From Paludibacter sp. (GTDB lineage Bacteria > Bacteroidota > Bacteroidia > Bacteroidales > Paludibacteraceae), in NCBI GenBank assembly GCA_010365115.1, contig JAAFGX010000002.1:1-64000 (forward strand): a stretch of 64,000 nt of DNA. The letters run 5' to 3'. Both the position numbers and the translations under genes were made by a program. This document shows positions 17,321-47,742 of this stretch, in pieces. A model generated the notes under the pieces. The model saw only the letters and a program-made list of their open reading frames with translations. It had not been told where the DNA came from and did no database searches. Positions within the stretch are counted from its first letter, which is position 1. Each line of letters opens with the position of its first letter.

Positions 17321-18796
17321 TTAAATGGTTTTTGAATAGATAATTAATTTATCGCCTGTGTTTAATTTGTTTTCCGATTTATTGTTCCACTCTTTTAAAT
17401 TATCAATGGTGCAACGATAAGTTTTGGCAATGCTATAGAATGATTCACCCGACTTCACTTTGTGCGTTAATTTCTCGCTTTTTTCAACTTTTGCAAGTGT
17501 TTTTTCATCCGATTGACTCAAGATGAGTTTTTGTCCAGGCTGTATTTTGCTGTTTGTCAATTGATTCAATTTTTTCAGTTCGTCAATAGAGATGTTAAAC
17601 TTTTTTGAAATGCTAAACAACGATTCGCCCGATTCTACTTTATGTGTTGTAGTTGCTAGAATTTCAGCTTTATTGGCTTTGTTAGTTTTAGAAGCTTCAG
17701 AATTTAAAATTGGAGTTTTTGCAGTTTCTGTCTTTGCGATTTCTGGTTTAACTTCTATATTCAGTTTTATTTCGTCGCCAAAATGAATGTTGCTGATTGT
17801 AATATTATTGATTTTTTTTAAATCATCAATAGAGATGTCATATAATTTTGAAATACTGAAGAGTGTTTCACCCTTTTTTACGGTATGTGAAGCAAGAGTT
17901 GTTTTTGTAGAGGTAAGTGATTCTGGCTTCTCGGTTTCTTTTGTATTCCCTTTTTCAATGGTTTTATTTTCAGCTAATTGTATAGTTTCTACTACTAAAA
18001 TAGTTTCTTTATCTTTTATTTTTAGCTGCTGTTTTGGTTTAATTTTGCTGCCATTTAAGTCGTTTTTTCTTTTCAATTCTGCAACTGTAATGCCATATTT
18101 ATCAGCAATAATACTTAAATTTTCGCCCGATTTTACCCGATGATATTTTGCAGGAATAATCTTCTTTGTTTCTTTTGAAGGAACTGCAACAGGTGTAGAA
18201 ATCAGTTTATCTGCAATTTGGTTTTCACGTACGGCATCACAAGGGAGTATAGCCAACATTTTGTGTTCGCAAATTACCCTATTGGCTTTAATATAGCGTT
18301 TCTTATAATAATCTTCTTGAGAATTTGAGATAATAACTCCTCTTTGGACTGAGGCATGTATAAAATCGAAATTTCCGTCCTCTTTAGCCTCTACTACAAT
18401 GCCTACATGCCCTACACGACTGCTTCTATGGCGACCGGAGAAATACACCAAATCACCGGATTTGAGTTGGTTTCGTTCCACGGTATCGAACTGATGTGCC
18501 TGATTAGATGACGATCGTTCCAGATTATAACCAAAATTACTATAAACAAAAGAAGTAAATCCTGAACAATCGAATGATGAAGTTCCTGATGATCCATAAC
18601 GATAAGGAGTATCTAAAAATATTTTTCCATAATTAACAATTGAATCTGTTATAGATATTTGATTTGGAGATAAATAGTCAATTTTGGTGGAATCGGTTGG
18701 AGGTGAAAATTGTTTATCCGAAAGCTTCTGAGCCATCGAAATATGTATTGAAAAAAAGAGAGTTAAAACGAAGAATAATTGTTTTTTAAACGTCAT
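17321..18796 (-). CDS. NlpC/P60 peptidoglycan endopeptidase with four LysM domains
   Basis: The 491-residue product has a signal peptide ending SMAQ. An NlpC/P60 cysteine peptidase domain follows (about 50-165), with Cys77 in 'SFDCSGF', His130 in 'VGHVGIV' and His147 in 'FIHAS' forming the expected triad. Four LysM modules come next (about 215-260, 300-345, 380-430 and 440-490), each starting like 'HKVESGESLFSISKKF'. It likely cuts stem peptides during wall growth and division, held on glycan strands by LysM. Ser/Thr/Lys-rich linkers separate the modules. Four LysM copies at the C-terminus is rich but not rare. The SIMPL gene follows closely. Confidence 0.94.
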   Translation of the reverse strand: MTFKKQLFFVLTLFFSIHISMAQKLSDKQFSPPTDSTKIDYLSPNQISITDSIVNYGKIFLDTPYRYGSSGTSSFDCSGFTSFVYSNFGYNLERSSSNQAHQFDTVERNQLKSGDLVYFSGRHRSSRVGHVGIVVEAKEDGNFDFIHASVQRGVIISNSQEDYYKKRYIKANRVICEHKMLAILPCDAVRENQIADKLISTPVAVPSKETKKIIPAKYHRVKSGENLSIIADKYGITVAELKRKNDLNGSKIKPKQQLKIKDKETILVVETIQLAENKTIEKGNTKETEKPESLTSTKTTLASHTVKKGETLFSISKLYDISIDDLKKINNITISNIHFGDEIKLNIEVKPEIAKTETAKTPILNSEASKTNKANKAEILATTTHKVESGESLFSISKKFNISIDELKKLNQLTNSKIQPGQKLILSQSDEKTLAKVEKSEKLTHKVKSGESFYSIAKTYRCTIDNLKEWNNKSENKLNTGDKLIIYSKTI

Positions 18797-19919: not shown

Positions 19920-22163
19920 CTAATCTTTAATTAACTTGATTGTTTTGTCTCCAATTTTAACGAAGAATAATCCTTTACTCAATGTGTTTAAATTCAACAC
20001 GTTTGTTCCTGAATTCAATTGTTTTTGCATTAACAATTGTCCCGTTGTATTGAAAATGGTTATATCACTGTTCTTAATCAATTCTACTGTCAGGTTATCG
20101 ACAACCGGATTGGGATAGATGGTCAACAAATTGATTTTTCGGTCAGGAATGTCGGTACTTTCTAACTCGCGTTTCAGCATCAAGTCTGCGTTTACTGTTG
20201 TGTTGGCAGAAGTCAGGCTTACAGGAAATTCAGCAATTGCCGCCGCAGTTTCCGAAACAACTTTATAATTATCCAATGCAATGTTTTCGAAAGCGTAATT
20301 TCCATAAGCATCTGTCATTGTCCAGGCCACAGCTGCATTGTCAGAATTCAATAATAAAACCGGAATATTAACAGCAATATTTGCTGCAACTTCGGCGTTA
20401 ATTTTTCTCATTCCATTTTCGGCCATTACGGTATCTTTCAAAGCAATAGTTTCAAAAAAGATATTTCCGTAAATTTTGCCTGTTCCAACGGGCATTTTAT
20501 AATTCTTCAATTCTACTGTCAAGTATTCAATATTGTCATTCAGAGTTATATAATCAGCCGTTTTGAAGAATATTTTATTGATATAGAAAGTTGGCAAATA
20601 ATTCTTGTACAGATTTATGTCGGGTATAACATAAACAGTGTATTCAGCCTGCGGCAAACCTGCAAATACGAATGATCCATCGGTAATAGGATATGAAATT
20701 AATGCTTTTCTGTAGTTTTTATTAAATAAAAGGGCAGATCCCGATTTCATCAATTCATTTCCGGCCATGGCTTTACCAGTAAGCGAATAGGTTTCGGGTG
20801 TAGTTATTTTTGAATAACAAGCAACCATTCCAACAACAGGACAGAGAATAGTCAGTGAATCTTTTGCTATATCGTAACTGCCAAAGCGTACATAATCTCC
20901 AATTTTCAGAGTAGAAGTATCTGCAATTTTGTATAGCCTTGTATAAGCAACAAGCTCTTTCGTCATTTCTTTTAAAAATAATTGGCCTGTACACCCATCA
21001 ATGCCCGGAACTACTATTCCTTTTTTGTTCATAATACATCCCACAGGAGGAATATTTCTTAATTCGTAGCATGTTGCAATCCCAATAATGCGACAAGAGT
21101 TAGTCGTGTTCGAATCGTTCCTTACATAATAACCGCCAAAGACAACTTCATCGCCTTCTTTAACACCAATTCTGGTAGAATTGTAAAGATTTGCACTAGC
21201 AGGATTAACATTCGGAATTGTATTATTGTCATCAATTTTTATAGTAAACAATTGACGAACTGAACTAATCGGCGAATATTCTTGAATTAATAATTGTCCA
21301 TCACATTTTACAACTACACCTTTTTTATCCTTTACACAATTTGTAATGTCAATTAATTCGTAGCAGGTTGCAATACCGACCGTAAAACATAAATTCACAG
21401 CACTGGAGTCGATTGCAGTTTTGTAGCCGCTAAACTTTACACGGTCCCCGGCTTTCAGATTGGTTGATAACGGGCTTATGACATAACGTTGAGGAAAAGC
21501 AGTCATTACACGGGTATCTTCAATAAACATTTTTCCGCTACATCCATCAATGCCTGCCACTACTATTCCATCTTTGTCCAGTGGACATGCCGAGGTTTCT
21601 ACTACCGTATAACATTCCACAATATTATAACACGGAGTGGTAATACATTGAATCTTTGTACCTTTGAATTTTACAGTTGTGCCCGTTGGAAGCAATTTAT
21701 CCCTGATTTCAAAAAGATCACCGGTGGAGTTGTCTTTTAAAATTGAAAAATTTATGCTCTTCCCGGTTACCACACCCATTCTATCCATGGTGCAACTCGC
21801 ATAGATTGTTTTTATTAAAGTTCCATCAAAATATATTTCGGTATTTTCCGAAACAGTTCCTAAATTTAGTATTGTTTTAAATTTTGAAATTACTTGAGTG
21901 CACATCATTCCCAAATCAGGAAGTCTCTTTTTGGAAACATAAATTTTGTTCACAACGACTGAGTCTTTTGCCAGAAAATAATCGGGGCAGCCGTCGTTTG
22001 AAACATAAATATACGCTACATATATGCTATCAGTGGCACTGGGGTTTGAGGGATAAACCTCAGCGAAATACTGTTCAGTGGGCATTATCTGCGACCATGC
22101 AGACATGAAACTTAACATGCTGATAATAAATAGCAGCATTGTTTTGGGTAGAATTTTTTTCAT
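19920..22163 (-). CDS. Secreted T9SS cargo with four Cys-rich repeat modules
   Basis: The 747-residue protein has a signal peptide ending SAWSQ and an N-terminal domain of about 100 residues. Four related modules follow (about 124-187, 193-268, 276-367 and 376-450). Modules 2-4 begin like 'CVKDKKGVVVKCDGQLLIQE' and end like 'VGIATCYEL', with paired Cys and a central 'LKxGDxVxFxGY' strand, an OB-like pattern. A CarboxypepD/SpaA-like beta domain follows (about 455-545; 'DGSFVFAGLPQAEYTVYVIP') and another near 575-660. A T9SS type A sorting domain closes it ('YPNPVVDNLTVEL', ending 'VKIGDKTIKLIKD'). It is surely exported, but I do not recognise the Cys module, and the function is unknown. It is a single-gene unit with its own terminator. 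Confidence 0.85.
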   Translation of the reverse strand: MKKILPKTMLLFIISMLSFMSAWSQIMPTEQYFAEVYPSNPSATDSIYVAYIYVSNDGCPDYFLAKDSVVVNKIYVSKKRLPDLGMMCTQVISKFKTILNLGTVSENTEIYFDGTLIKTIYASCTMDRMGVVTGKSINFSILKDNSTGDLFEIRDKLLPTGTTVKFKGTKIQCITTPCYNIVECYTVVETSACPLDKDGIVVAGIDGCSGKMFIEDTRVMTAFPQRYVISPLSTNLKAGDRVKFSGYKTAIDSSAVNLCFTVGIATCYELIDITNCVKDKKGVVVKCDGQLLIQEYSPISSVRQLFTIKIDDNNTIPNVNPASANLYNSTRIGVKEGDEVVFGGYYVRNDSNTTNSCRIIGIATCYELRNIPPVGCIMNKKGIVVPGIDGCTGQLFLKEMTKELVAYTRLYKIADTSTLKIGDYVRFGSYDIAKDSLTILCPVVGMVACYSKITTPETYSLTGKAMAGNELMKSGSALLFNKNYRKALISYPITDGSFVFAGLPQAEYTVYVIPDINLYKNYLPTFYINKIFFKTADYITLNDNIEYLTVELKNYKMPVGTGKIYGNIFFETIALKDTVMAENGMRKINAEVAANIAVNIPVLLLNSDNAAVAWTMTDAYGNYAFENIALDNYKVVSETAAAIAEFPVSLTSANTTVNADLMLKRELESTDIPDRKINLLTIYPNPVVDNLTVELIKNSDITIFNTTGQLLMQKQLNSGTNVLNLNTLSKGLFFVKIGDKTIKLIKD

Positions 22164-27800: not shown

Positions 27801-30800
27801 ATGAAAAAAACAATTTTAAGTATTATTGCGTTTTTTCTTTTCATTACTATTCAACTTAATGCAACCATTGAGGCTGGTAGTCCAACAATTTTTTGTTCGG
27901 TGAATTCACTTTCCGATTTTAAATATACAGTTGGTAGTGGGCCATCGGTCGAACAAGCATTTACAATAAGTGCTGAAAATCTTACATCAAACCTTGTTGT
28001 TACAGCACCTACCAATTATGAAATTTCCCCATTGTTGGGCACATCGTTTATTTCGATGAATAACATAACCATCGCACATTCAGCTGGAATTGTGAGCGAT
28101 ATTGTACTTTATGTACGATTGAAGCAAGGATTATCGGCAAATAGTTACATCGGCAATATTAGTTCAACTTCGGTTGGTGCAACAACTAAAAATATCGTAT
28201 TAAGCGGTAATGTAATGAATCCTCCGTCAATAAGTACATCGGTAACCAGCATTACCGGGCTTTTCAATTTTTATAATATTGGCCAATCCGTCATTAAATC
28301 GTTTGTAGTTAGTGGTACCGATTTAAAATCAGGCATTATAATAACTCCACCATACAATTTTGAAATTTCAACTACAGGATCAAGCTTTACAAATTCAGCT
28401 ATTACATTACCCTTTTCAGGATCAACATTCTCACCAACTACAATTTATGTTAGATTAAATCCAAGCATATATCCTTCGTATAATTATACCGGAAATTTAT
28501 CAATTAGCACTGTTGGTGCTGTAACAAAGACAGTTACTTTAGAAGGACGTAGCTCTTACAAACCCAGTATTACGACTTCTAAATCCGCAATAAGTGGATT
28601 GAATTATTTTGCAAGTTCAGGTCCATCGGCTGAACAATTGTTTACATTGAACGGAAATGACATGATGGACGTAATGGTAGTAACAGCACCTACCAATTTT
28701 GAAATTTCAAAAACTGGTGGAAGTAGTTTTGTTGGTCAATCATCGCTTACATTTAATGCCACAAATTATATGTTAGGAACAACCACGGTATATGTTCGAC
28801 TGAAAGCAGGGCTCACTGCAAACAGTTACAGTGGAAACCTAACCTGCGAATCATCAAATGCAACAACTAAAACAATTGCATTAAGTGGTATTGTGTCGAA
28901 CAAACCTGTACTAAATGTAACCGGAAGCCCGGTTAGCGGACTTAATTACAATTTAAACAACGGTCCATCGGTCGATAAGTCATTTACGGTAAGTGGTTCA
29001 TCACTTAGTTCGTTGGTATTTGTTTACGCACCTGCCAATTTTGAAATTTCGACAACTTCAGGTAGCGCCTTTTCGGCAACGAATGCTATTATTTTGCCTC
29101 AATCAGGTGGAAATGTTGGTCAAACAACAATTTATGTTCGACTAAAAGCGGGATTAAATGTCGGAAATTATAATGAGAATGTAATAGTAGCATCGACAGG
29201 CGCAACTAACCAAACTGTTTCACTTTCGGGAATGGTGATAGATCAATTTGGATTAACAGTATCTGAAACGGCCTTTACAGGTTTAGATTATTTGAGCGGT
29301 TCAGGTCCATCAGCCGATAAACTGTTTACAGTTTCTGGGAATTCCATTAACTCAATTGTAATTATTACGGCGCCAACAAATTTCGAATTATCTACCTACT
29401 CCGGCGCTTCATTTCAGGGAAGTAATCAATTGATATTACAACCTGTTTACGGTGTTATATACACAAAATCCATATTTGTTCGATTAAAATCAGAATTGCA
29501 GGTAGGAACATATACCGGCAACATAACAGTATCGACAGCAGGATACGCAACGAAAAGTCTTTCGCTTACAGGCAAAGTTTCAACCCCTGTAGTGTTAACT
29601 CCTGAATCGGCCTATTATGAACCTCGAAACAATGGAACACTTACGTTTTCGAATAATTGGTTGTTTTCGCGTAATATAGGAAATTATGTGAACCTTAACG
29701 ACCAATTAGGAGCTGAACAAATGGTGCGAAGCATGACAGTCCGTAATGGTAAAATGTTATTCTGCAATAGAAGTAATGGAAATCAGATTGTTAGCGTGGA
29801 TGGCGTTACAGGAATACGAAATACCTTGACATTAGCCAACAATGTATTTACTTATATTGATCGTAATAAAACATATACTGCTGACAGTGTTTATTCAGCT
29901 GTTACACCTTGTAATGATATTAAAGTCGATAATTCTGGAAATGTTTTAGTAGGTAACATGATTACAAATGGTACTTTACACTATCAAATTTGGAAAATTG
30001 ATATGGCAACAGGTAATGGATCGGTTTTAATTGATCAAAAAGATTTAGATATTTTATTCCCAGGTAGATTAATACGATTTGATTATTTTAATGTGTCTGG
30101 AAATGTGAATGATTCAGCTTTTATTTATGCTGTTTGTACTTCATTAAACTCTGTTCGAGAAATGTATCGTTGGACCATTACAAATGGTGTTGCAAGCCCA
30201 AGACCGGAAATTATACCACTTGATAAGGCACAAGATCCTGCATTTGGCTCATCTATTATGGTTTGCCCTATTGATAATGAGAATTTTTATTTTGACGGCG
30301 ATAAAACATATCCATTCAAGTATAATATTAGAACTGGAATTAATGACTCTTTCAAAAATTATTCAGCAATTGTTGACTCTGTAACTATGCCTGGCAGATT
30401 CTGGAAAATGTCTCAAAATATAAATGGAATAAAAGAGTTTAAGATTGGTGATGAAACATTCTTAATTGTAGCGGCTACAAACAATTCATTCACATCACTA
30501 TACCCATCATCCACTTTCCGCATTTTTAAATATCCAAAAAACAATAATGATATTGGTAAATTGCAATGTTTATGGTCATTCCCTCAGGCTGGTATGGGAA
30601 ATGGTGTTCAATATTATCGAGCAGCTATACCCGAAGTTGAGGTAAATGGTGATAAGGCTACTATTTATGTGTACTATGGGGAGAATGGTTATGGTGTTTA
30701 TGAACTGACATCAAAACCGGATGGTACGTATACAAATGTCGAAGAATTAACAGATAAAATTACACTTCATATTGCAGAAAACAATATTGTTTCAAATAAA

Positions 30801-30959
30801 ATGCTTGAGCGAATTGAAGTTTATTCACTCACAGGACAGTTGTTGAGATCAGCGGTTAATACAATGTCGGTTCAAAAACCCGGGATACAAGGGGTTTATA
30901 TTGTTAAAATGAATAATGGTTCGGGTGTACAACAATCGCAAAAAATTGTTATTCGATAA
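27801..30959 (+). CDS. Large T9SS cargo with five Ig-like repeats and a DUF4623-like domain
   Basis: The 1052-residue protein has a signal peptide (IIAFFLFITIQLNA). Five repeats of about 110 residues follow (about 32-595), each of the form 'SGLNYxxxxGPSxxxxFTVSG', 'VTAPTNFEIS', 'TTIYVRLKAGL' and 'GATTKxxxLSG'. A beta-propeller-like segment resembling DUF4623 comes next (about 605-985; 'MTVRNGKMLFCNRSNGNQIVSVDG', 'DIKVDNSGNVLVGN'). A T9SS type A sorting domain ends it ('IEVYSLTGQLLRSA', 'GVYIVKMNNGSG'). It is probably surface-bound or released; the ligand is unknown. It is expressed alone, with a terminator at 31033. The DUF4623 name is from memory of pattern. Confidence 0.82.
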   Translation: MKKTILSIIAFFLFITIQLNATIEAGSPTIFCSVNSLSDFKYTVGSGPSVEQAFTISAENLTSNLVVTAPTNYEISPLLGTSFISMNNITIAHSAGIVSDIVLYVRLKQGLSANSYIGNISSTSVGATTKNIVLSGNVMNPPSISTSVTSITGLFNFYNIGQSVIKSFVVSGTDLKSGIIITPPYNFEISTTGSSFTNSAITLPFSGSTFSPTTIYVRLNPSIYPSYNYTGNLSISTVGAVTKTVTLEGRSSYKPSITTSKSAISGLNYFASSGPSAEQLFTLNGNDMMDVMVVTAPTNFEISKTGGSSFVGQSSLTFNATNYMLGTTTVYVRLKAGLTANSYSGNLTCESSNATTKTIALSGIVSNKPVLNVTGSPVSGLNYNLNNGPSVDKSFTVSGSSLSSLVFVYAPANFEISTTSGSAFSATNAIILPQSGGNVGQTTIYVRLKAGLNVGNYNENVIVASTGATNQTVSLSGMVIDQFGLTVSETAFTGLDYLSGSGPSADKLFTVSGNSINSIVIITAPTNFELSTYSGASFQGSNQLILQPVYGVIYTKSIFVRLKSELQVGTYTGNITVSTAGYATKSLSLTGKVSTPVVLTPESAYYEPRNNGTLTFSNNWLFSRNIGNYVNLNDQLGAEQMVRSMTVRNGKMLFCNRSNGNQIVSVDGVTGIRNTLTLANNVFTYIDRNKTYTADSVYSAVTPCNDIKVDNSGNVLVGNMITNGTLHYQIWKIDMATGNGSVLIDQKDLDILFPGRLIRFDYFNVSGNVNDSAFIYAVCTSLNSVREMYRWTITNGVASPRPEIIPLDKAQDPAFGSSIMVCPIDNENFYFDGDKTYPFKYNIRTGINDSFKNYSAIVDSVTMPGRFWKMSQNINGIKEFKIGDETFLIVAATNNSFTSLYPSSTFRIFKYPKNNNDIGKLQCLWSFPQAGMGNGVQYYRAAIPEVEVNGDKATIYVYYGENGYGVYELTSKPDGTYTNVEELTDKITLHIAENNIVSNKMLERIEVYSLTGQLLRSAVNTMSVQKPGIQGVYIVKMNNGSGVQQSQKIVIR

Positions 30960-39032: not shown

Positions 39033-40328
39033 TCACTTCTTTTCCAGCTGTTTTTGAATCTTTTTAATAGCTGTTTCAATTGATTTTTCGGGTTCAATCA
39101 CATTGTATTCGCCCCAGAATTCGGGGTCGGAAAAGCCAGATGCTTCATCGCCTATGATAACCGACGGACGAAGCCGTTCTTTTGGGCTTATGGTTGTGTT
39201 TTCTTTGTTTATTTCCCAGTCGGTCACGGCCATTTCTATAGTGGAAAAAAAGTTGGTATTGAATAGCTTTTTCTTCCAGTTAATTTTTAATCCAAACTCA
39301 ATGCGGCTGAAACCATAGTACCATCTTCCATCTTTTTCGCGGTAGTCGATGCGGTAGTTTGCTTCTATCGGATACACTTTAGCATTAAATGGTTTTTTGA
39401 CGATAAACATTCTGGCGGCTTCGTCCCTATTGGAGAGATTTAGTTTGAAAACGGCACTTTTCAGGGCTAAATTTTGTGCGTCGATATAGAGTTTTCCATA
39501 ATATAATGGTTCGGTTTTACCGGGTCGTTGTTTGAAATCCAGCACATAAATAAGTTGGTTGTCCATGTATGTTGAACGATCAAAAGTAAATTCGTAATTC
39601 GACATCATATTATCCGTAAAAATCATATCGGGATTTTTCATAATATCCAGGTATAATGAATTGAACGGACCTCCCTGAAGTTTGAAAGTGATGGTGTCTA
39701 ATTTAGAATAATCTGCATTTTTTCGGGCTTTGTAAAGTTTTACAATGTCCGGTTTGTACGAAGTGCTAGGCTGTTTATTTATTTCAACAACCGCCTCGGA
39801 TAGAGATACATAGGTGCGGTTTTTTTTGATTGCTTCACGATAGAAAGCGGTCATCATAGCGGTTTTGTCGAAATAATTTTCACCTTTTTTATCCATAACA
39901 GCAAGTATCAGCGCTTCCGCATCTTTTGATACTACACTAATTTCGGGCAAAACAACCGAAGTAAGATCCATTTCAATGCGCACTTTTTCGCGGTTTAAAT
40001 CGGCAACAGACAATTGTTTGTTTTTGTAGCCAATGAAACTGACAATTACTTTTGGGTTTTGAATTTCTTTCGATATTTTCAATGAGAATTCACCGTCTGT
40101 ATTGGTCACAGTTGAAACATTGGTGCCTACTACCATCAAATTGGCAAAGGCCAGAACGTTTCCTGTTTTTCGGTCGACAATTATACCTTTGTATTCGGTA
40201 TAATTATCCATTTCGCTTTTAACCGGAATTGGAGTAATTGCAAATGCATTAGTAGATGAAAAGAGCAAAAATAGAGCTAAACATATTGAAGGAAGGCGGT
40301 TGATGAAAAAGCGCATTTGTGTTCTCAT
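39033..40328 (-). CDS. CarboxypepD_reg-like domain protein (DUF5686-like), exported
   Basis: The translation from 40403 contains a likely later start: the ATG at 40328 (MRTQMRFFINRLPSICLALFLL) begins a good signal peptide ending near TNAFA. A CarboxypepD regulatory-like domain follows ('YKGIIVDRKTGNVLAFANLMVVGTNVSTVTNTDGEFSL'). Then comes a large region with 'YFDKTAMMTAFYREAIKKNRTYVSLSEAVVEI', typical of Bacteroidota envelope proteins related to DUF5686. The molecular role is unknown; envelope beta-rich proteins of this sort are often periplasmic or outer-membrane associated. An ATG at 40316 is another possible start. Confidence 0.75.
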   Translation of the reverse strand: MRTQMRFFINRLPSICLALFLLFSSTNAFAITPIPVKSEMDNYTEYKGIIVDRKTGNVLAFANLMVVGTNVSTVTNTDGEFSLKISKEIQNPKVIVSFIGYKNKQLSVADLNREKVRIEMDLTSVVLPEISVVSKDAEALILAVMDKKGENYFDKTAMMTAFYREAIKKNRTYVSLSEAVVEINKQPSTSYKPDIVKLYKARKNADYSKLDTITFKLQGGPFNSLYLDIMKNPDMIFTDNMMSNYEFTFDRSTYMDNQLIYVLDFKQRPGKTEPLYYGKLYIDAQNLALKSAVFKLNLSNRDEAARMFIVKKPFNAKVYPIEANYRIDYREKDGRWYYGFSRIEFGLKINWKKKLFNTNFFSTIEMAVTDWEINKENTTISPKERLRPSVIIGDEASGFSDPEFWGEYNVIEPEKSIETAIKKIQKQLEKK

Positions 40329-40466
40329 AATATTTTGTAGCCAGAGGTGAATTTTTATACAAAAATACAAATAATTATAATAAATCTGTTTTATTCCTAT
40401 CAAATTTACATGCTTTTATTTATAACAAACAAACTGCTATATTGTTGATGTGATTTTGGTTATGCT

Positions 40467-41540
40467 TTATCTGAAAATCATAAATTTTCCGACTTTGCGC
40501 TTATTGGCAGTATAAACAACTATTAGGTACAATCCATTTTTTAGATCGGCAACAGAAGTTGTACCATTGGATGAAAATTTATCTGTTTGCAGTAGAATTC
40601 CATTGATGCTTAGAATAAAGTAAGTTGCTTCTTCAGGTTTGCTCAGTTTTACAGTAATAAGGTTTGTTGCTGCGTTAAATTTAGCAGTGAAAGTACTTTT
40701 CGTTTCGGCAGGACCAACACCAACCGACCATGATTCTATCATTCTGTTTCCCCAAATAAATTCAGCCAATTCTGGATGGTCAATATAGGGATTTCTATTG
40801 TGTTGAAAAGAATAAACGGCATTGTTCCGCTTGATTTCTTTGTCGCTCACCATATCCTGACTATTCCACTTTAACAACAAATTCACCGCATAAGGTTTAA
40901 AAGTAGGATACGTATTGGTATAAAGCATACTGGAAGTTCCAAGGCTTTGCCAAATTGGAGCATAATTTTCGTAACAGGTTACCATGTACATATAAGTTCG
41001 TGCAAAGTCGCCTTTATACTCGTCAATCGGCTCAAAAACAGTCCCATTATAACCCGGAAAAGTATTTGGACCCACTTTTACAATGGTATTCGGAAGAATG
41101 GAAGAACCATCTGCTTCGCCTAAAGCATAGTTCGACTTAGCTGAATTGGCGTTAGCATCCGAAGGATAAAGATTATGTAAATCGGAACCTATCGGTTCAG
41201 AATTCACCTCATCGGATGAAATGCCAAACCAACTTTTGGGCATGGAGTGCTCGCGGTTCATTCCGCCTCCACTCCAAACGGTTCGTTTGTAATTGGAATA
41301 CATATCCCAAAAATATCCGTTGGGATGCCAGTCGGTAGTACGAAAATAAGTACTCGAACTGTAGTATTCAAGCTGCGTATGGTTTTTTATTGTATTGTAC
41401 AAAGCCGTTTTTAAAGCAGCCTGATTTTTTCCTTCGGCCAACGAATAATATCCTTCCGGTTCTTGCGCCCAAAGTTGGGTAGCAAGTACCAGCATTAAAC
41501 TGAAGAGTATTCCTTTATAGATGTGCCGGATAATTTCCAT
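40467..41540 (-). CDS. Secreted endonuclease I family protein, paralogue 1, T9SS sorted
   Basis: The 357-residue protein has a signal peptide ending QLWAQ. An endonuclease I (PF04231) domain follows (about 25-260), with catalytic-site segment 'MNREHSMPKSWFG', then 'SDLHNLYPSDANANSAKSN' and 'HNRNPYIDHPELAEFIWG'. The C-terminus resembles a T9SS sorting domain ('FSSNGTTSVADLKNGLYLIVVYT', ending 'KVGKFMIFR'). The family degrades DNA non-specifically using a His-metal finger. It is the most downstream of four adjacent paralogues and 15 bases from the next. Confidence 0.92.
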   Translation of the reverse strand: MEIIRHIYKGILFSLMLVLATQLWAQEPEGYYSLAEGKNQAALKTALYNTIKNHTQLEYYSSSTYFRTTDWHPNGYFWDMYSNYKRTVWSGGGMNREHSMPKSWFGISSDEVNSEPIGSDLHNLYPSDANANSAKSNYALGEADGSSILPNTIVKVGPNTFPGYNGTVFEPIDEYKGDFARTYMYMVTCYENYAPIWQSLGTSSMLYTNTYPTFKPYAVNLLLKWNSQDMVSDKEIKRNNAVYSFQHNRNPYIDHPELAEFIWGNRMIESWSVGVGPAETKSTFTAKFNAATNLITVKLSKPEEATYFILSINGILLQTDKFSSNGTTSVADLKNGLYLIVVYTANKRKVGKFMIFR

Positions 41541-41555
41541 TTTATTACGAGATAA

Positions 41556-44396
41556 TTATTTCAAGAATTTTCCTGTAAAGGAATATTGATTATTTTGAAC
41601 ACGTAAAATGAAAATTCCAGTTTGAGGAAATGAAATATCCATTTGACTGGCATTTGCAATGATTTTATAAAGACCGATTCCGGTAAGCGAGAAAATCTGA
41701 ATCGATTCATTTCCTTGTAAACCAATGACCGAAAGCTGATTATTTTTCGAAATAATCTTTATTGATTGTGTAGTTTCTTTTTTAATTTTGTTGTTCAATA
41801 AAGTTTGAACCGCTATTGTTTCGGAAGGTAAAGAAACGGCAGACCCCAATGTAGCACGTACATTATAATAATACAATTGGTTTTCATTTAAACCGGTAAT
41901 AACCCCACGAGTTGTTGAAAACGGTATGTCTTTTTGAATGAAAACGGTTTCCTGACCTCCATAAGTAGCTGATACATCGTCTATAGCAATATTTCCACTT
42001 CCCACTTTGTTGTATTTAAAACGCAAAGCTGTAATATTTTGCGTTGGAGTAAATGTGTATACTGGATATATTTTGGAAGTAGTACCTGCATAAGGAATGC
42101 TGTCAATCTTTAACCAATCCAATCCATTGAACCCATGCACTACAAACGAAGAACCTGCACTCGCCGAAGCATATCTGTACATATATTTAAAAGTTGAAAC
42201 TGGATTCGGATATACTTTAGTTTGAAGTATTTCGCCAGCCAATTTTAAATTTATCGAAGGTATGGCTACGCCAGAACTGGTGGCTGAGGTGTAAGTTCCA
42301 CTTGCAGTTCCGCTCCATCCAATTGGCAATGGAGTTCCGTTTGATCCCACATTATTGAATCCTTCAATAACTGTAGTATAAGCTGCACCTTTAAGTTCAA
42401 ACACATTTATTAAATATCCGTTTGCAAAAAGTGTTTCTTCCCAGTTGGCAGTAAAACCGCTCGTGTGAATATCGGTTTCCAGCATTAGAATTGGAATATC
42501 CAAGGTTGAAGTATGCAATTGCATGGTATTAATTGCTGCAACATTTCCTCCTGGTTTTATTGCTTCTACCGAATAGGTATAGGTGTTTTCGGGCGATAAG
42601 TTCTGAATGGGAAATTGGGTGGTTTTTCCTGTCAGCACATTTTGAATAACGGTTGGTTCGCTAGTACTGAAGTTTATTTGATGATTCTTCAACATGGAAT
42701 AAGAATCAATAGGTAATTTTGTCCATTGCTTTTCGTTATAATTCTTTGATGGATGTGTAACATTTGATTTTCTTTCCAAACTAATATCTTTACCCCAATC
42801 ATTCGCTGCACCTGCATCAGCAATTCCCACCTGATCAATAATTACACCCCCGCGAGTTAAGATAACTGCATCGTTACCGTTGAAATTAATAAGCGAGTCC
42901 AGTTTTTGTGCTATTGAAGTTAAAGCAGTAGTTGTACATCTGCTATTCACAAGAATATAACTTGAGTTATTTTGCAAAGTTCCGGTTAATTGAATTCCTG
43001 AACCAAAATCACCTGCACCGTTCCATTGTTTTAAAACACTATATTTCGATAAATCTACAGTTTTGCCTGTGCCATTATATATTTCCAATGCTTTATTCCA
43101 ACTGTCGCCTTCCACGTAAGCCGAAATTATCAAATCACCCGCTTGTTTGTCGCCCTGATACACCTTCAATCTATAATCTGTAGCCAAAGGATCGGAAATC
43201 CATTGCAAGGTTCCACCTATAGGCGAAATCTGGTCGGGTTCAAGGGTAATAAAATCAGCAGAAGCCAGTGCTTTTATAGGAATGCGAAGACTTTCCGACA
43301 AACCGCCGCCCTGAATCAGAAGCGTATCGCGAACTAAACCGGAAGTGTTGGGCGTGAAAGTAATTGTCAAATCAATTCCATTTAAAGCAGTTGCAACAGG
43401 AACAGTGCTAGTCGACAATGATAAAGCGGCATTGTTTTTAATAAATGATAGTTGAACATTGGAATTAATATTAACTCCCTGAATATGTAAAACTTGCGAG
43501 CGTTTATCATTTTGCAAAATCACTCCAAAATCCATGGTAATTCCACGACGAGGAGCAACCAGAAAAGGATTTATTTCTACCGGGAAAGGATAAACTTTAG
43601 TGCTGTCGGCGCCCCAGATATATTCAGCCAAATCGGGATAATCGATAAACGGATTTCGATTGCCTTGAATATTATAAATCGTTTCTATTCTTTTCAATTC
43701 TTTTGCACTTACAGGATCCTGGCGATGCCATTTCAACAATAAATCCAATGCCCACGGTTTCCAAACTGGATACGTATTATTGTTCAACATGGGCGATTGC
43801 CAAAGTTGTGAGAAATTTTCATAAATAGTGGAAATATAAAAATACGAACGCGCAAAATCACCTTTATATTCGTCGGCAGGTTCAAAACATTTGTCGGTAT
43901 ATACTGTTCCAAAGCCGTTGGTGCCAATTTTTGTAACTCCATTGTAAAGTGTTGGTGCGCCTGTGACTTCGCCCAAAGGCAAATTACTTTTGGTAATATT
44001 GGTGGTGGCATCGGCAGGATATAAATGAAATAAATCTTTGTAGGCATTATTATCATAAGCTCCCCACCAACTTTTGGGGAAAGAATGCTCAATGTGCATA
44101 CCTTCAATCGACCAGAATCCACTGAAAGTACGAACTGTGTTGGAATACATATCCATCACCGTATTGTCAGTATTGCGGTCGGTGTAGTAAAACCCTTCCC
44201 ATGTAAAACCCGGGCCGCTGCCATAATATAATTCTTTCATGGGAGCACAATACGTATGAAGCGCAGTCTTTAATTCAGCTTTCTTTTTGTTTTGGGCAAA
44301 GTAATAATAACCTGCAGGAACAGTAGCAAAAACAGTGGAAAATGCCAGAATGGAAATTCCAAAAAACAATAAAAACTTAATACTGAATTTAGACAT
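41556..44396 (-). CDS. Secreted multidomain endonuclease I with lamin-tail domain, paralogue 2, T9SS sorted
   Basis: The 946-residue protein has a signal peptide (FSTVFA). The endonuclease I domain (about 25-270) shows 'MHIEHSFPKSWWG', 'LFHLYPADATTNITKSN' and 'GNRNPFIDYPDLAEYIWG'. A HYDIN/ASPM-like beta domain follows (about 275-390), then a lamin-tail domain (about 425-575; 'GDSWNKALEIYNGTGKTVDLSKYSVLKQWNG'). An Fn3-like and galactose-binding-like part and a C-terminal sorting domain ('IQIFSLTGIGLYKI', 'TGIFILRVQNN') complete it. The lamin-tail domain is common in secreted nucleases and may aid substrate or surface binding. It starts 4 bases after paralogue 3. Confidence 0.92.
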   Translation of the reverse strand: MSKFSIKFLLFFGISILAFSTVFATVPAGYYYFAQNKKKAELKTALHTYCAPMKELYYGSGPGFTWEGFYYTDRNTDNTVMDMYSNTVRTFSGFWSIEGMHIEHSFPKSWWGAYDNNAYKDLFHLYPADATTNITKSNLPLGEVTGAPTLYNGVTKIGTNGFGTVYTDKCFEPADEYKGDFARSYFYISTIYENFSQLWQSPMLNNNTYPVWKPWALDLLLKWHRQDPVSAKELKRIETIYNIQGNRNPFIDYPDLAEYIWGADSTKVYPFPVEINPFLVAPRRGITMDFGVILQNDKRSQVLHIQGVNINSNVQLSFIKNNAALSLSTSTVPVATALNGIDLTITFTPNTSGLVRDTLLIQGGGLSESLRIPIKALASADFITLEPDQISPIGGTLQWISDPLATDYRLKVYQGDKQAGDLIISAYVEGDSWNKALEIYNGTGKTVDLSKYSVLKQWNGAGDFGSGIQLTGTLQNNSSYILVNSRCTTTALTSIAQKLDSLINFNGNDAVILTRGGVIIDQVGIADAGAANDWGKDISLERKSNVTHPSKNYNEKQWTKLPIDSYSMLKNHQINFSTSEPTVIQNVLTGKTTQFPIQNLSPENTYTYSVEAIKPGGNVAAINTMQLHTSTLDIPILMLETDIHTSGFTANWEETLFANGYLINVFELKGAAYTTVIEGFNNVGSNGTPLPIGWSGTASGTYTSATSSGVAIPSINLKLAGEILQTKVYPNPVSTFKYMYRYASASAGSSFVVHGFNGLDWLKIDSIPYAGTTSKIYPVYTFTPTQNITALRFKYNKVGSGNIAIDDVSATYGGQETVFIQKDIPFSTTRGVITGLNENQLYYYNVRATLGSAVSLPSETIAVQTLLNNKIKKETTQSIKIISKNNQLSVIGLQGNESIQIFSLTGIGLYKIIANASQMDISFPQTGIFILRVQNNQYSFTGKFLK

Positions 44397-44399
44397 TTT

Positions 44400-46448
44400 T
44401 TAGTTGTTTATTTTAATTGTTTTGAACCTTTGATGGTATTCTATTTGCAACAAATATAGACCTTTTTGTGGTAAATGAATTAGCATTTCAGTACTATTTG
44501 CAGTATATGATCCGATTCGTCTTCCCATCCTATCGAAAACATACAATTTTGAATTTGGTTTTAAATTTGAAATGCAAACACCCATGCCAGATACTGAATA
44601 CTGAATAGGTTCGATTTCATTTTTTTCTATACCGTTTATCAAAGTTGTGTGAACTGAAATGGCATTGGAAATGGAAGCTGAATTTCCTACGGGTTGAACC
44701 GTAAAATAATAAGTTGAATCGCTCATTAATTCATCAACTGCGAAATTCATCACATTTCCCACCGATTTTGGAAAACCCAGCACTGAAACAGCAGTTTGAA
44801 CACTTCCTTGTGTGGCTACCTTCACATAATCAACATACACACGACTTCCGCTTACAGCCGACAAAGCAATAACCGAAGAACTTGTACTTTGTGGAATATT
44901 CACAATAAAATCCTGATTCGCAACTCCTGTTGTCCAAACTGCTAATGGTTGATTATTGAGAGTGGCGGTAAGTTTTGCTCCTGCATCGTTTACATATTGT
45001 CGGGCTTTTACAGTCAAAACAGTTCCGGTAGATGATAAATTGAGTGCCGGAAAAATGATTTTTCCGGGATTGCTACCCGAAGCCAACCGCATGGAACTTG
45101 ATGTTTGATTATCGGTATAACCTTCCGTTGTCCAGCCGCTTGGCAGTCCGTTTAAAAATTCATCCTGAAGAATGGTTCTCGATTCCGTGGCACCATTGCT
45201 TTGTAGAGAATATACATTGAGACTGTAACCATTAGCAGCTGCCGAAACCGTCCAGTTGGCTGTAAATCCGTTGTGTCTAATATTGGTGGCTGGCAAAGCC
45301 AAAAATTCGTCGGAGGAAAGGGCTTTAATGCTAAATGAAGCAGCTGTAATTCCACCGCCCGAAATGTTGAGTTGAGCAGTTTGAGAACCAACAGTTTGCG
45401 CCGAATATTTTACAACCAGATTATAGCCAGCTTCTGCATTCGATTTTGAAATTAAAGAGTTTGTAACTGAAAAATTGGCTGCATTTGTTCCTGTTATTGA
45501 GATGGATAAATCTCCGGTTAAATTCAAAGCTTTCAGATTTACAGTCAAATTTGCGGTTTGTAGGTAAGCTACTTTTCCAAAATCAAAAATAGTTCCATTG
45601 GAAGGTGTGCTTAAATAAGGATAATCCACTTTTCCATCTGGAGAAAATGGCACAGAAGTAAGTTTTCCCCAAACATATTCGACCATAAGCGGATAGTCAA
45701 TGTATGGGTTTCTATTTCCCTGAATTTTGTATACTTCATTATTGCGGGTAATTTCTTTTTGACTTATCGGATCTTGCTCACACCATTTCAGCAATAAATC
45801 CACCGTCCATTGCTCAAAAACTGGATAAGTATTATTATCGAGCTGATTGACTGAATTTCCAGTCCATAATGTTGAATAATCTTCATAGGCAGTAACCATG
45901 TACATATATGCACGCGAGAAATCACCTTTATATTCATCGGCAGGTTCCCAAGCATCAATCAATCCACCCGGCCGGCTGCTCGATTTTCCGACTTTAATTG
46001 CACCGTTTGAAAAGGTGGTTGTACCATCAACAACTGCCATCGGCCAACTTCCTTTTGCCGAATTGGCCGTGCTATTCGATGGAGCCAAATGCATCACATC
46101 CTGAGCTGCTTGTCGTCCATCGCCCCACCAACTTTTTGCAAAGGAGTGTTCGATGTTCATTCCGCTGGCAGCAGAATTTCCATTAAAAGCTACATGATTG
46201 TTGGAATACATATCCCATACCGTTCCATCTGTCGGACGAACATCCGTTTTGGTAAATGCAGCCCATGTACTGCCCGTACCGCTTCCATAGCTTGGCACAT
46301 TGGCATTTTTTATTTTCAAATGCAGAGCGGTTTTTAATTCTGCTTGTTTTTTACCGATGGCGTTATCGTAATAACCGGCAGGAATTTGAGCAAAAACCGA
46401 GAATAATAGTAAGTGGAGGACAAAGGAAAGTAAAAATGTCTTTTTCAT
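44400..46448 (-). CDS. Secreted endonuclease I with Ig/Fn3-like C-terminus, paralogue 3, T9SS sorted
   Basis: The 682-residue protein has a signal peptide (LLLFSVFAQ). The endonuclease I domain (about 22-260) has 'MNIEHSFAKSWWGDGRQ', 'VMHLAPSNSTANSAKGS' and 'GNRNPYIDYPLMVEYVWG'. A HYDIN-like beta domain follows (about 280-385), then a jelly-roll and Fn3-like part and a C-terminal sorting motif ('YVFDRMGRRIGSYT', 'QKGLYLLQIEYHQR'). Note 'FAKSWWG' where two paralogues have 'MPKSWFG/IPQSWFG'; the catalytic His is kept. It lies 4 bases before paralogue 2, strongly suggesting one transcript. Confidence 0.92.
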   Translation of the reverse strand: MKKTFLLSFVLHLLLFSVFAQIPAGYYDNAIGKKQAELKTALHLKIKNANVPSYGSGTGSTWAAFTKTDVRPTDGTVWDMYSNNHVAFNGNSAASGMNIEHSFAKSWWGDGRQAAQDVMHLAPSNSTANSAKGSWPMAVVDGTTTFSNGAIKVGKSSSRPGGLIDAWEPADEYKGDFSRAYMYMVTAYEDYSTLWTGNSVNQLDNNTYPVFEQWTVDLLLKWCEQDPISQKEITRNNEVYKIQGNRNPYIDYPLMVEYVWGKLTSVPFSPDGKVDYPYLSTPSNGTIFDFGKVAYLQTANLTVNLKALNLTGDLSISITGTNAANFSVTNSLISKSNAEAGYNLVVKYSAQTVGSQTAQLNISGGGITAASFSIKALSSDEFLALPATNIRHNGFTANWTVSAAANGYSLNVYSLQSNGATESRTILQDEFLNGLPSGWTTEGYTDNQTSSSMRLASGSNPGKIIFPALNLSSTGTVLTVKARQYVNDAGAKLTATLNNQPLAVWTTGVANQDFIVNIPQSTSSSVIALSAVSGSRVYVDYVKVATQGSVQTAVSVLGFPKSVGNVMNFAVDELMSDSTYYFTVQPVGNSASISNAISVHTTLINGIEKNEIEPIQYSVSGMGVCISNLKPNSKLYVFDRMGRRIGSYTANSTEMLIHLPQKGLYLLQIEYHQRFKTIKINN

Positions 46449-46536
46449 AGAATATAATTTCTGTAGACTAAAAGAGAGAATCTGCTGATTGGTTTTTCAG
46501 CAGGTTCCCTCAAAAATAGGAGTAAAAAAGTGTTGG

Positions 46537-47589
46537 TTATTTGCTGACAATAAATTTTTGAATTGATTTTCGGTTACCCGATTTGAGTTGAAGCAAATAC
46601 ATACCGTTATTCAATTGTTCCAACGAAATAGTTTTTGAAATACTCAATTGATCTTCTTTAATCAACTGACCGCTTAAGTTGTAAATGGAATATGCCAGAT
46701 TGGATTCGTCCGAATTAATGGTCAATTCATTCTGAACCGGATTGGGAGAAACAGAAAAAGCAATTTTCACTTTATCAATTGCTGAAACCAACGACCATGG
46801 TTCGCCTTTGCGTGTTCCCCAGATAAATTCGGCCAGTTCGGGATGATCGATAAAAGGGTTGCGGTTGTGTTGAACAGATTCTACGGTATTATTTCTATTT
46901 TTTTCCTTAATGCTAACAGGATCCTGACGATGCCATTTTAAAAAGATATCTTTTGCATAGGCACTTAGTCCTGAGAATGAAGAGCTAAAAACTCCACCAC
47001 TCCAGTTTTCACATGCTCCAGAATAGCGAGTAGCCATATAAAAATAGGTTCGAGCAAAATCACCTTTGTATTCGTTAATAGGCTCAAAGACAGTGCCTGA
47101 ATAGCCGGAAAAACTGGAAGATCCCAATTTACTTCCATTTCCTGTTGTATTTGTAGCAGAACCAACTTCACCAAATGGATAACTGCCTCGGATCCCATTG
47201 ACTTTACTGTCAGTCGGATAAACATGGAATGCATCACTCACCATTGGAGAGGCTTCTCCAAACCAACTTTGTGGAATAGAGTGTTCACGGTTATAATTTA
47301 AACATTCAGCTCCAGTAGTTCCTGAATTTTGATCAGTTCTCCAAGTAAAACTACAGTTTGAATACATATCCCAAATTTTCCCTGTGGATGGATTGATGTC
47401 AGTACTACCATATGCAGTCCATAATCCATTATAGCTTGTAACGCTGTGTCCTTCTGCAATAATTGTTTTTAAACTTGTTCTTAAAGCTGCATCTGCTTTA
47501 CCCACCGCATTATTATAATATCCGCTTGGCTCGGCAGCAAAGATGAAAACAGAAAGAGTGACCAGAAAGAGAGTAAAAAGTTTTTTCAT
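46537..47589 (-). CDS. Secreted endonuclease I, paralogue 4, T9SS sorted
   Basis: The single nuclease domain has 'YNREHSIPQSWFG', 'DAFHVYPTDSKVNGIRG', 'NEYKGDFARTYFYMATRY' and 'HNRNPFIDHPELAEFIWG'. A clear T9SS type A sorting domain follows ('VSPNPVQNELTINSDESNLAYSIYNLSGQLI', ending 'KSIQKFIVSK'). The track start at 47604 adds MKNDF; the ATG at 47589 (MKKLFTLFLVTLSVFIFAAE) starts the signal peptide directly. It is the first gene of the array and the most compact. Confidence 0.93.
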   Translation of the reverse strand: MKKLFTLFLVTLSVFIFAAEPSGYYNNAVGKADAALRTSLKTIIAEGHSVTSYNGLWTAYGSTDINPSTGKIWDMYSNCSFTWRTDQNSGTTGAECLNYNREHSIPQSWFGEASPMVSDAFHVYPTDSKVNGIRGSYPFGEVGSATNTTGNGSKLGSSSFSGYSGTVFEPINEYKGDFARTYFYMATRYSGACENWSGGVFSSSFSGLSAYAKDIFLKWHRQDPVSIKEKNRNNTVESVQHNRNPFIDHPELAEFIWGTRKGEPWSLVSAIDKVKIAFSVSPNPVQNELTINSDESNLAYSIYNLSGQLIKEDQLSISKTISLEQLNNGMYLLQLKSGNRKSIQKFIVSK

Positions 47590-47742
47590 AAAATCATTTT
47601 TCATTTAATTGAAACACATTTTCAAAAATGCAGGGAGCAAATATAATGAATATGTTTTGAATAATAATACCATTTTGTCTTTTTAAGAGACCACAGATAA
47701 AAATAACGCACAGCAAAAATAGAAGTATAATTTACCAGAAAT

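Follow-up and report, generated by a model that had tools for sequence, protein, structure and literature searches.

Endonuclease I genes and their surroundings

The window analysed here, a stretch of 64,000 nucleotides from a Paludibacter sp. contig, contains four neighbouring genes for Endonuclease I proteins, which we designated A to D and which are transcribed in the order D, C, B, A (Table 1). The open reading frames together fill positions 40467-47604, with intergenic gaps of 3 bases between B and C, 15 between A and B and 88 between C and D. The sequence-only reading had located the cluster correctly to within one base; of the gaps that it gave (4, 15 and 88 bases), the last two agree with ours and the first should read 3. 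The end that it gave for the cluster, 47589, is a second in-frame ATG of D, which yields a more typical signal start (MKKLF...) and is probably the true start of the gene.

Table 1. Positions of the endonuclease genes and associated features in the window
Feature	Position	Strand	Description
Gene D	46537..47604	minus	355 aa; first in cluster; signal-like N terminus, Endonuclease_1, strong T9SS type A tail
Gene C	44400..46448	minus	682 aa; Endonuclease_1, choice-of-anchor-D/ASH-like, fn3 seemingly split by jelly roll, marginal T9SS tail
Gene B	41556..44396	minus	946 aa; Endonuclease_1, ASH-like, lamin tail, fn3s, jelly roll, marginal T9SS tail
Gene A	40467..41540	minus	357 aa; last in cluster; Endonuclease_1 and T9SS tail
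Promoter-like element AAACATATTCATTATATTTG	47638..47657	minus	upstream of D; form AAACATATT-N3-TAnATTTG
Terminator-like hairpin and U run	46465..46517	minus	in D-C spacer; from MFE and shuffles
CarboxypepD_reg-like protein gene	39033..40403	minus	after A; PF13715, E 2.8e-14; synteny

Our Pfam profile search matched all four proteins to PF04231 over positions 4/5 to 234/235 with scores of 153-242 bits, the cut-off being 25 bits (E 2e-44 to 9e-72; D 9.4e-72, C 8.4e-45, B 2e-44 and A 1.6e-52). A whole-genome profile search found no further PF04231 gene in the source genome, a 4.79 Mb draft with an estimated contamination of 7.2%. The Glu-His dyad of the beta-beta-alpha metal motif, which was assigned from the Pfam-length alignment and the invariance of the residues, is present in A-D and in 99-100% of 188 related domains; the same holds for the metal-binding Asn, which aligns with Asn127 of Vvn (structures 1oup and 2pu3). 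The sequence-only reading had noted that the His-metal region was kept in all four copies and had named loss of catalytic residues in several copies as one observation that would speak against its proposal; no such loss was found. A-D are thus Endonuclease I enzymes with intact catalytic residues, for which nuclease activity is predicted.

The genes flanking the cluster are of other kinds, such as those for SufB, an SDR and a LOG-type protein. The CarboxypepD_reg-like gene adjoins the cluster in eight relatives; its product probably lies outside the nuclease function. SufB and the CarboxypepD_reg-like gene are common flanks in several relatives, and other relatives carry the cluster elsewhere. 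In two loci (L130 and L035) a D-E pair adjoins the same SDR-LOG pair in the opposite orientation, and in four congeners (L143, L127, L115 and L118) the cluster has a divergent upstream neighbour, a gene for a prolyl-oligopeptidase-type S9 peptidase of about 800 aa. A mobile element carrying the cluster was considered and set aside; the comparison covered the flanking genes, which vary between genomes. Elsewhere in the window, positions 17321-18796 encode an NlpC/P60 peptidase with four LysM domains.

Putative secretion signals and domain architecture

All four proteins have Sec-like N termini, as judged by eye, and C-terminal regions resembling type A sorting tails of the type IX secretion system (T9SS). 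Against the TIGR04183 cut-off of 23 bits, the tails scored 53.7 (D), 33.1 (A), 20.5 (B) and 19.2 bits (C) in a scan of the whole proteins, and 57.1, 36.4, 24.2 and 24.3 bits, respectively, in a scan of the genome. The profiles thus indicate clear tails in D and A, and those of B and C appear marginal by score, though they end at the right place. The tail of D also matched PF18962 (E 5.7e-15). The description of the locus as four neighbouring endonuclease I paralogues with T9SS-type tails, clear in D and A and marginal in B and C, holds.

T9SS machinery is present in the genome: a genome profile search for the sortase PorU (NF033707) found it twice, each time with more than 1150 bits, and about 145 proteins carry T9SS tails. 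The two full-length PorU genes (G000:C2:4916-8206 and G000:C23:13427-16723) may reflect a true duplication or, in a draft with 7.2% estimated contamination, a mixed bin. Two further proteins with T9SS tails are encoded in the window, at 19920-22163 (747 aa, with a weak SdrD_B match) and at 27801-30959 (1052 aa, without Pfam matches at E 1e-5). The D-type tail profile matches the tail of the Flavobacterium johnsoniae Endonuclease I NucA, which was trapped in the T9SS translocon and solved there (8GLK; PMC10994853). Secretion of A-D via the T9SS is therefore supported by their tails, by PorU and by analogy with the trapped NucA tail.

The sequence-only reading had assigned different accessory domains to the paralogues, and most of this is borne out. 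The lamin tail domain (45 bits; LTD, E 1.6e-11) and an fn3 domain (26.1 bits, E 1e-5) of B both scored above their cut-offs, and what had been called HYDIN-like corresponds to a choice-of-anchor D/ASH-like match in C that remains below threshold (NF012200, 29.3 bits; cut-off 45). AlphaFold2 models of C (mean pLDDT 81.7) and B (mean pLDDT 75.2 and a poor model of the endonuclease domain) both show a chain of beta domains, and the jelly roll of C is similar to K1, a cleaved-adhesin domain of Kgp (4itc, TMt 0.59). Sequence and secondary structure, taken together, suggest that the lamin tail of B is inserted in an fn3 domain and that jelly rolls are inserted in the second fn3 of B and in that of C. 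When the fn3 halves were joined in a splice test, the matches became longer but stayed sub-threshold (E 1e-4 and 0.004 for B and 0.002 for C), so that the insertions are likely and fall short of proven.

Ancient paralogy, gene order and putative control elements

To place the four copies, Endonuclease I domains were collected from 60 relatives and 80 other loci, and a tree of 124 domains was built. In this tree each of the four falls among its orthologues from other species (35-69% identity in the case of B), and an AU test rejected the four window copies as a single clade (p-AU 7e-7). Recent tandem duplication was rejected on these results, and the picture of a tandem array is misleading for this lineage: A-D are ancient, distinct paralogues and not one another's closest relatives. 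All 22 clusters of the genus that could be read share one gene order, namely first slot, E, C, C2, B and A, with members missing; because of their common ancestry they do not amount to 22 separate events. Loci from outside the genus (L036 and L037) are ordered differently. At least four PF04231 copies occur in 16 of 35 congeners, one of which (G001) reaches that count through a broken gene in two pieces, and seven of the 35 have no copy; the maximum among 296 sampled genomes of the class was three copies (at E 1e-20). The G001 gene (G001:C19:279152-279813) is interrupted by an in-frame TAA and is probably a broken copy.

Upstream of D lies the sequence AAACATATT-N3-TAnATTTG, which contains the Bacteroidota -7 box TAnnTTTG (PMC7366714). 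The motif was first noticed in the window and three relatives, and its exact form was then found in five more, so that eight congeners carry the element at the corresponding position before their first endonuclease gene. The exact element is a single copy in the source genome. Across this genome and the 60 relatives, an exact copy occurs in 11 genomes, never more than once per genome; nine of the copies are at the first endonuclease gene, and two (in G035 and G019) have no obvious gene at the right place; the reversed pattern, used as a control, occurs once in the same set. Degenerate forms, with 5-8 of nine positions matching, precede further clusters, and some clusters lack the element. A wider regulon was sought by allowing two mismatches and rejected: 47 sites were obtained versus 30 for the reversed control, with no credible regulon among them. 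No phosphate-responsive motif was identified for the cluster, nor was there evidence of phosphate regulation.

The first-slot genes that follow the element differ in their place in the tree. Those of L114 and L128, with the element, and those of L126, L115 and L116, with 7-8 of nine positions, fall in other clades of the tree, and a single clade of all the first-slot genes tested was rejected (p-AU 7e-5). These results suggest that the first-slot gene was exchanged while the promoter stayed. We tentatively go further, in a proposal that we ourselves hold to be somewhat doubtful: a dedicated, as yet undescribed regulator may read AAACATATT just upstream of the -7 box, and the first slot, from the element to the spacer hairpin, may be an exchangeable cassette into which nucleases of about three lineages were placed while the control elements were kept.

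The 88-base spacer between D and C is predicted to form a long stem with a U run after it (MFE -20.7 kcal/mol, z -4.29; 0 of 200 shuffles were as stable). In 10 other clusters the first gene or the second is likewise followed by a hairpin with a GAGAA...UUCUC stem and a U run, and a hairpin model gave three further matches at endonuclease spacers or starts (L136, L114 and L149). In the hairpin alignment, base pairs were kept in 92.5% of cells, and changes on both sides were seen in four of 11 pairs. A new RNA family was rejected: Rfam gave no match, and a leave-one-out model built without the window scored the window hairpin at 30.4 bits and gave 40.1 bits to an ordinary terminator-like site in another part of the genome. 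Because this model fails to separate the window copy from ordinary terminators, we read the hairpin as a terminator-like element, a putative partial intrinsic terminator conserved in position only.

The hairpin and its counterparts in the 10 relatives suggest that transcription is partly terminated ahead of C-B-A, and D is hence probably expressed more than these genes. By their small gaps C, B and A look like one unit; as the short D-C spacer itself showed no -7 box, this unit would rely on read-through from D. A single transcript for all four genes, as implied by the sequence-only reading, is thus supported in part: C-B-A are tightly spaced, and the terminator-like hairpin separates D from them.

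Possible roles and comparison with known systems

From the genes, their catalytic residues, tails, T9SS parts, paralogy and order, together with the element and the hairpin, all computed directly, we infer secretion, activity, substrate, expression levels and role; on balance, we consider it probable that the locus, an ordered cluster kept at the level of the genus, serves to break down extracellular nucleic acid and that its role is nutritional. Export across the outer membrane would run via the T9SS, after which the nucleases would either be set free or stay attached to the cell surface. D and A would act as compact enzymes, and the ASH-like, fn3 and jelly-roll modules of B and C, with the lamin tail in B, would probably anchor the enzyme to the surface of the cell, to matrix or to particles that bear DNA. 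A promoter with the cluster-specific element would drive D strongly, and the partial terminator would lower C-B-A. The products would then be dephosphorylated by a 5'-nucleotidase and the nucleosides imported via a NupG-type symporter.

A 5'-nucleotidase C domain and a NupG-type symporter are each encoded once in the source genome. The nucleotidase and NupG genes are on other contigs; no nucleotidase, transporter or phosphate gene lies inside the cluster. In the genus, the 5'-nucleotidase co-occurs with Endonuclease I (26/3/3/4; Fisher p 0.016, ignoring relatedness and completeness), which favours nutrition. The NupG-type symporter was found in 33 of 36 genus genomes; however, it also occurs in congeners without Endonuclease I and is therefore not specific. 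None of the 36 genus genomes, the source genome among them, has a CNT-type nucleoside transporter, and this import route was rejected. Bacteria with several extracellular nucleases were among the active DNA degraders in DNA-SIP experiments (PMC8289736), and having extracellular nucleases in several copies is a mark of active DNA degraders (PMC8289736, PMC11495043).

The accessory modules could instead aim the enzymes at structural extracellular DNA, so that the cluster would loosen biofilm matrix or degrade DNA from lysed competitors or from host traps; nutrient gain would then be secondary. The jelly-roll, fn3 and ASH-like modules fit matrix or cell binding, and the likeness of the C jelly roll to a cleaved-adhesin domain points the same way, as do the effect of the secreted nuclease ExeM on biofilms (PMC6085458) and the listing of a Riemerella T9SS endonuclease as virulence-involved (PMC10202324). 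However, no killing, adhesion or biofilm genes linked to the cluster were found in the gene neighbourhoods of the cluster in the window and in relatives, and the co-occurring nucleotidase and NupG fit nutrition at least as well; we regard this explanation as unlikely. Mere redundancy, in which copies are kept by drift or gene dosage without division of labour, would account for the many clusters with missing members and for the congeners without any copy, but gene order, domain architecture and catalytic residues have all been kept over deep divergences, as has the upstream element, and we consider redundancy quite improbable.

The nutritional reading is compatible with a division of substrates, in which some of the enzymes would be DNases and others RNases, or would serve double-stranded, single-stranded, protein-bound or surface-bound forms. 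This would explain why ancient paralogues stand side by side. Members of PF04231 can use DNA, RNA or both as substrate; the four types diverged deeply, each is conserved among its orthologues, and their architectures differ. On the other side, we were unable to identify specificity-determining residues among the four, and the catalytic core is common to all. A division of substrates is, in our view, a serious possibility that falls somewhat short of an even chance.

Secreted nucleases mark recyclers of external DNA, which in sediments is a large source of phosphorus, and an ordered, ancient enzyme set in one Bacteroidales genus offers a testable case of labour division in nucleic-acid foraging. 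The unique upstream element provides a sequence handle for finding the regulator and the inducing signal. A literature search on Paludibacter nucleases found nothing relevant. The Endonuclease I family, T9SS tails and multi-nuclease DNA foragers are already known; what is new is the ancient, ordered cluster within a single genus, together with its own promoter-like element and the terminator-like hairpin between D and C.

The DNA-degradation loci of Ca. Izemoplasmatales (PMC8289736) likewise hold several extracellular nucleases per locus, including a lamin-tail protein; however, they belong to another phylum with another secretion route, and they contain further nucleases, phosphohydrolases and ABC/phosphate transporters that are absent here, where nucleotidases and nucleoside or phosphate transporters are not co-located with the cluster. 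ExeM of Shewanella oneidensis (PMC6085458) is also a secreted nuclease with a lamin tail, and the lamin-tail region of B matches the ExeM model, but its catalytic domain is of the EEP type, in contrast to the Endonuclease I domain here. The T9SS surface endonuclease of Riemerella anatipestifer (NF052644; PMC10202324) is a further T9SS-dependent nuclease of Bacteroidota, and D matches its model in the tail only (23 bits versus a cut-off of 260). F. johnsoniae NucA (Fjoh_4723) belongs to the same EndA/Vvn family, has the same type of sorting tail and is an experimentally seen T9SS substrate by that tail (PMC10994853); the Paludibacter locus differs in comprising four ancient paralogues in a conserved, ordered cluster, two of them with long adhesive-like C-terminal regions.
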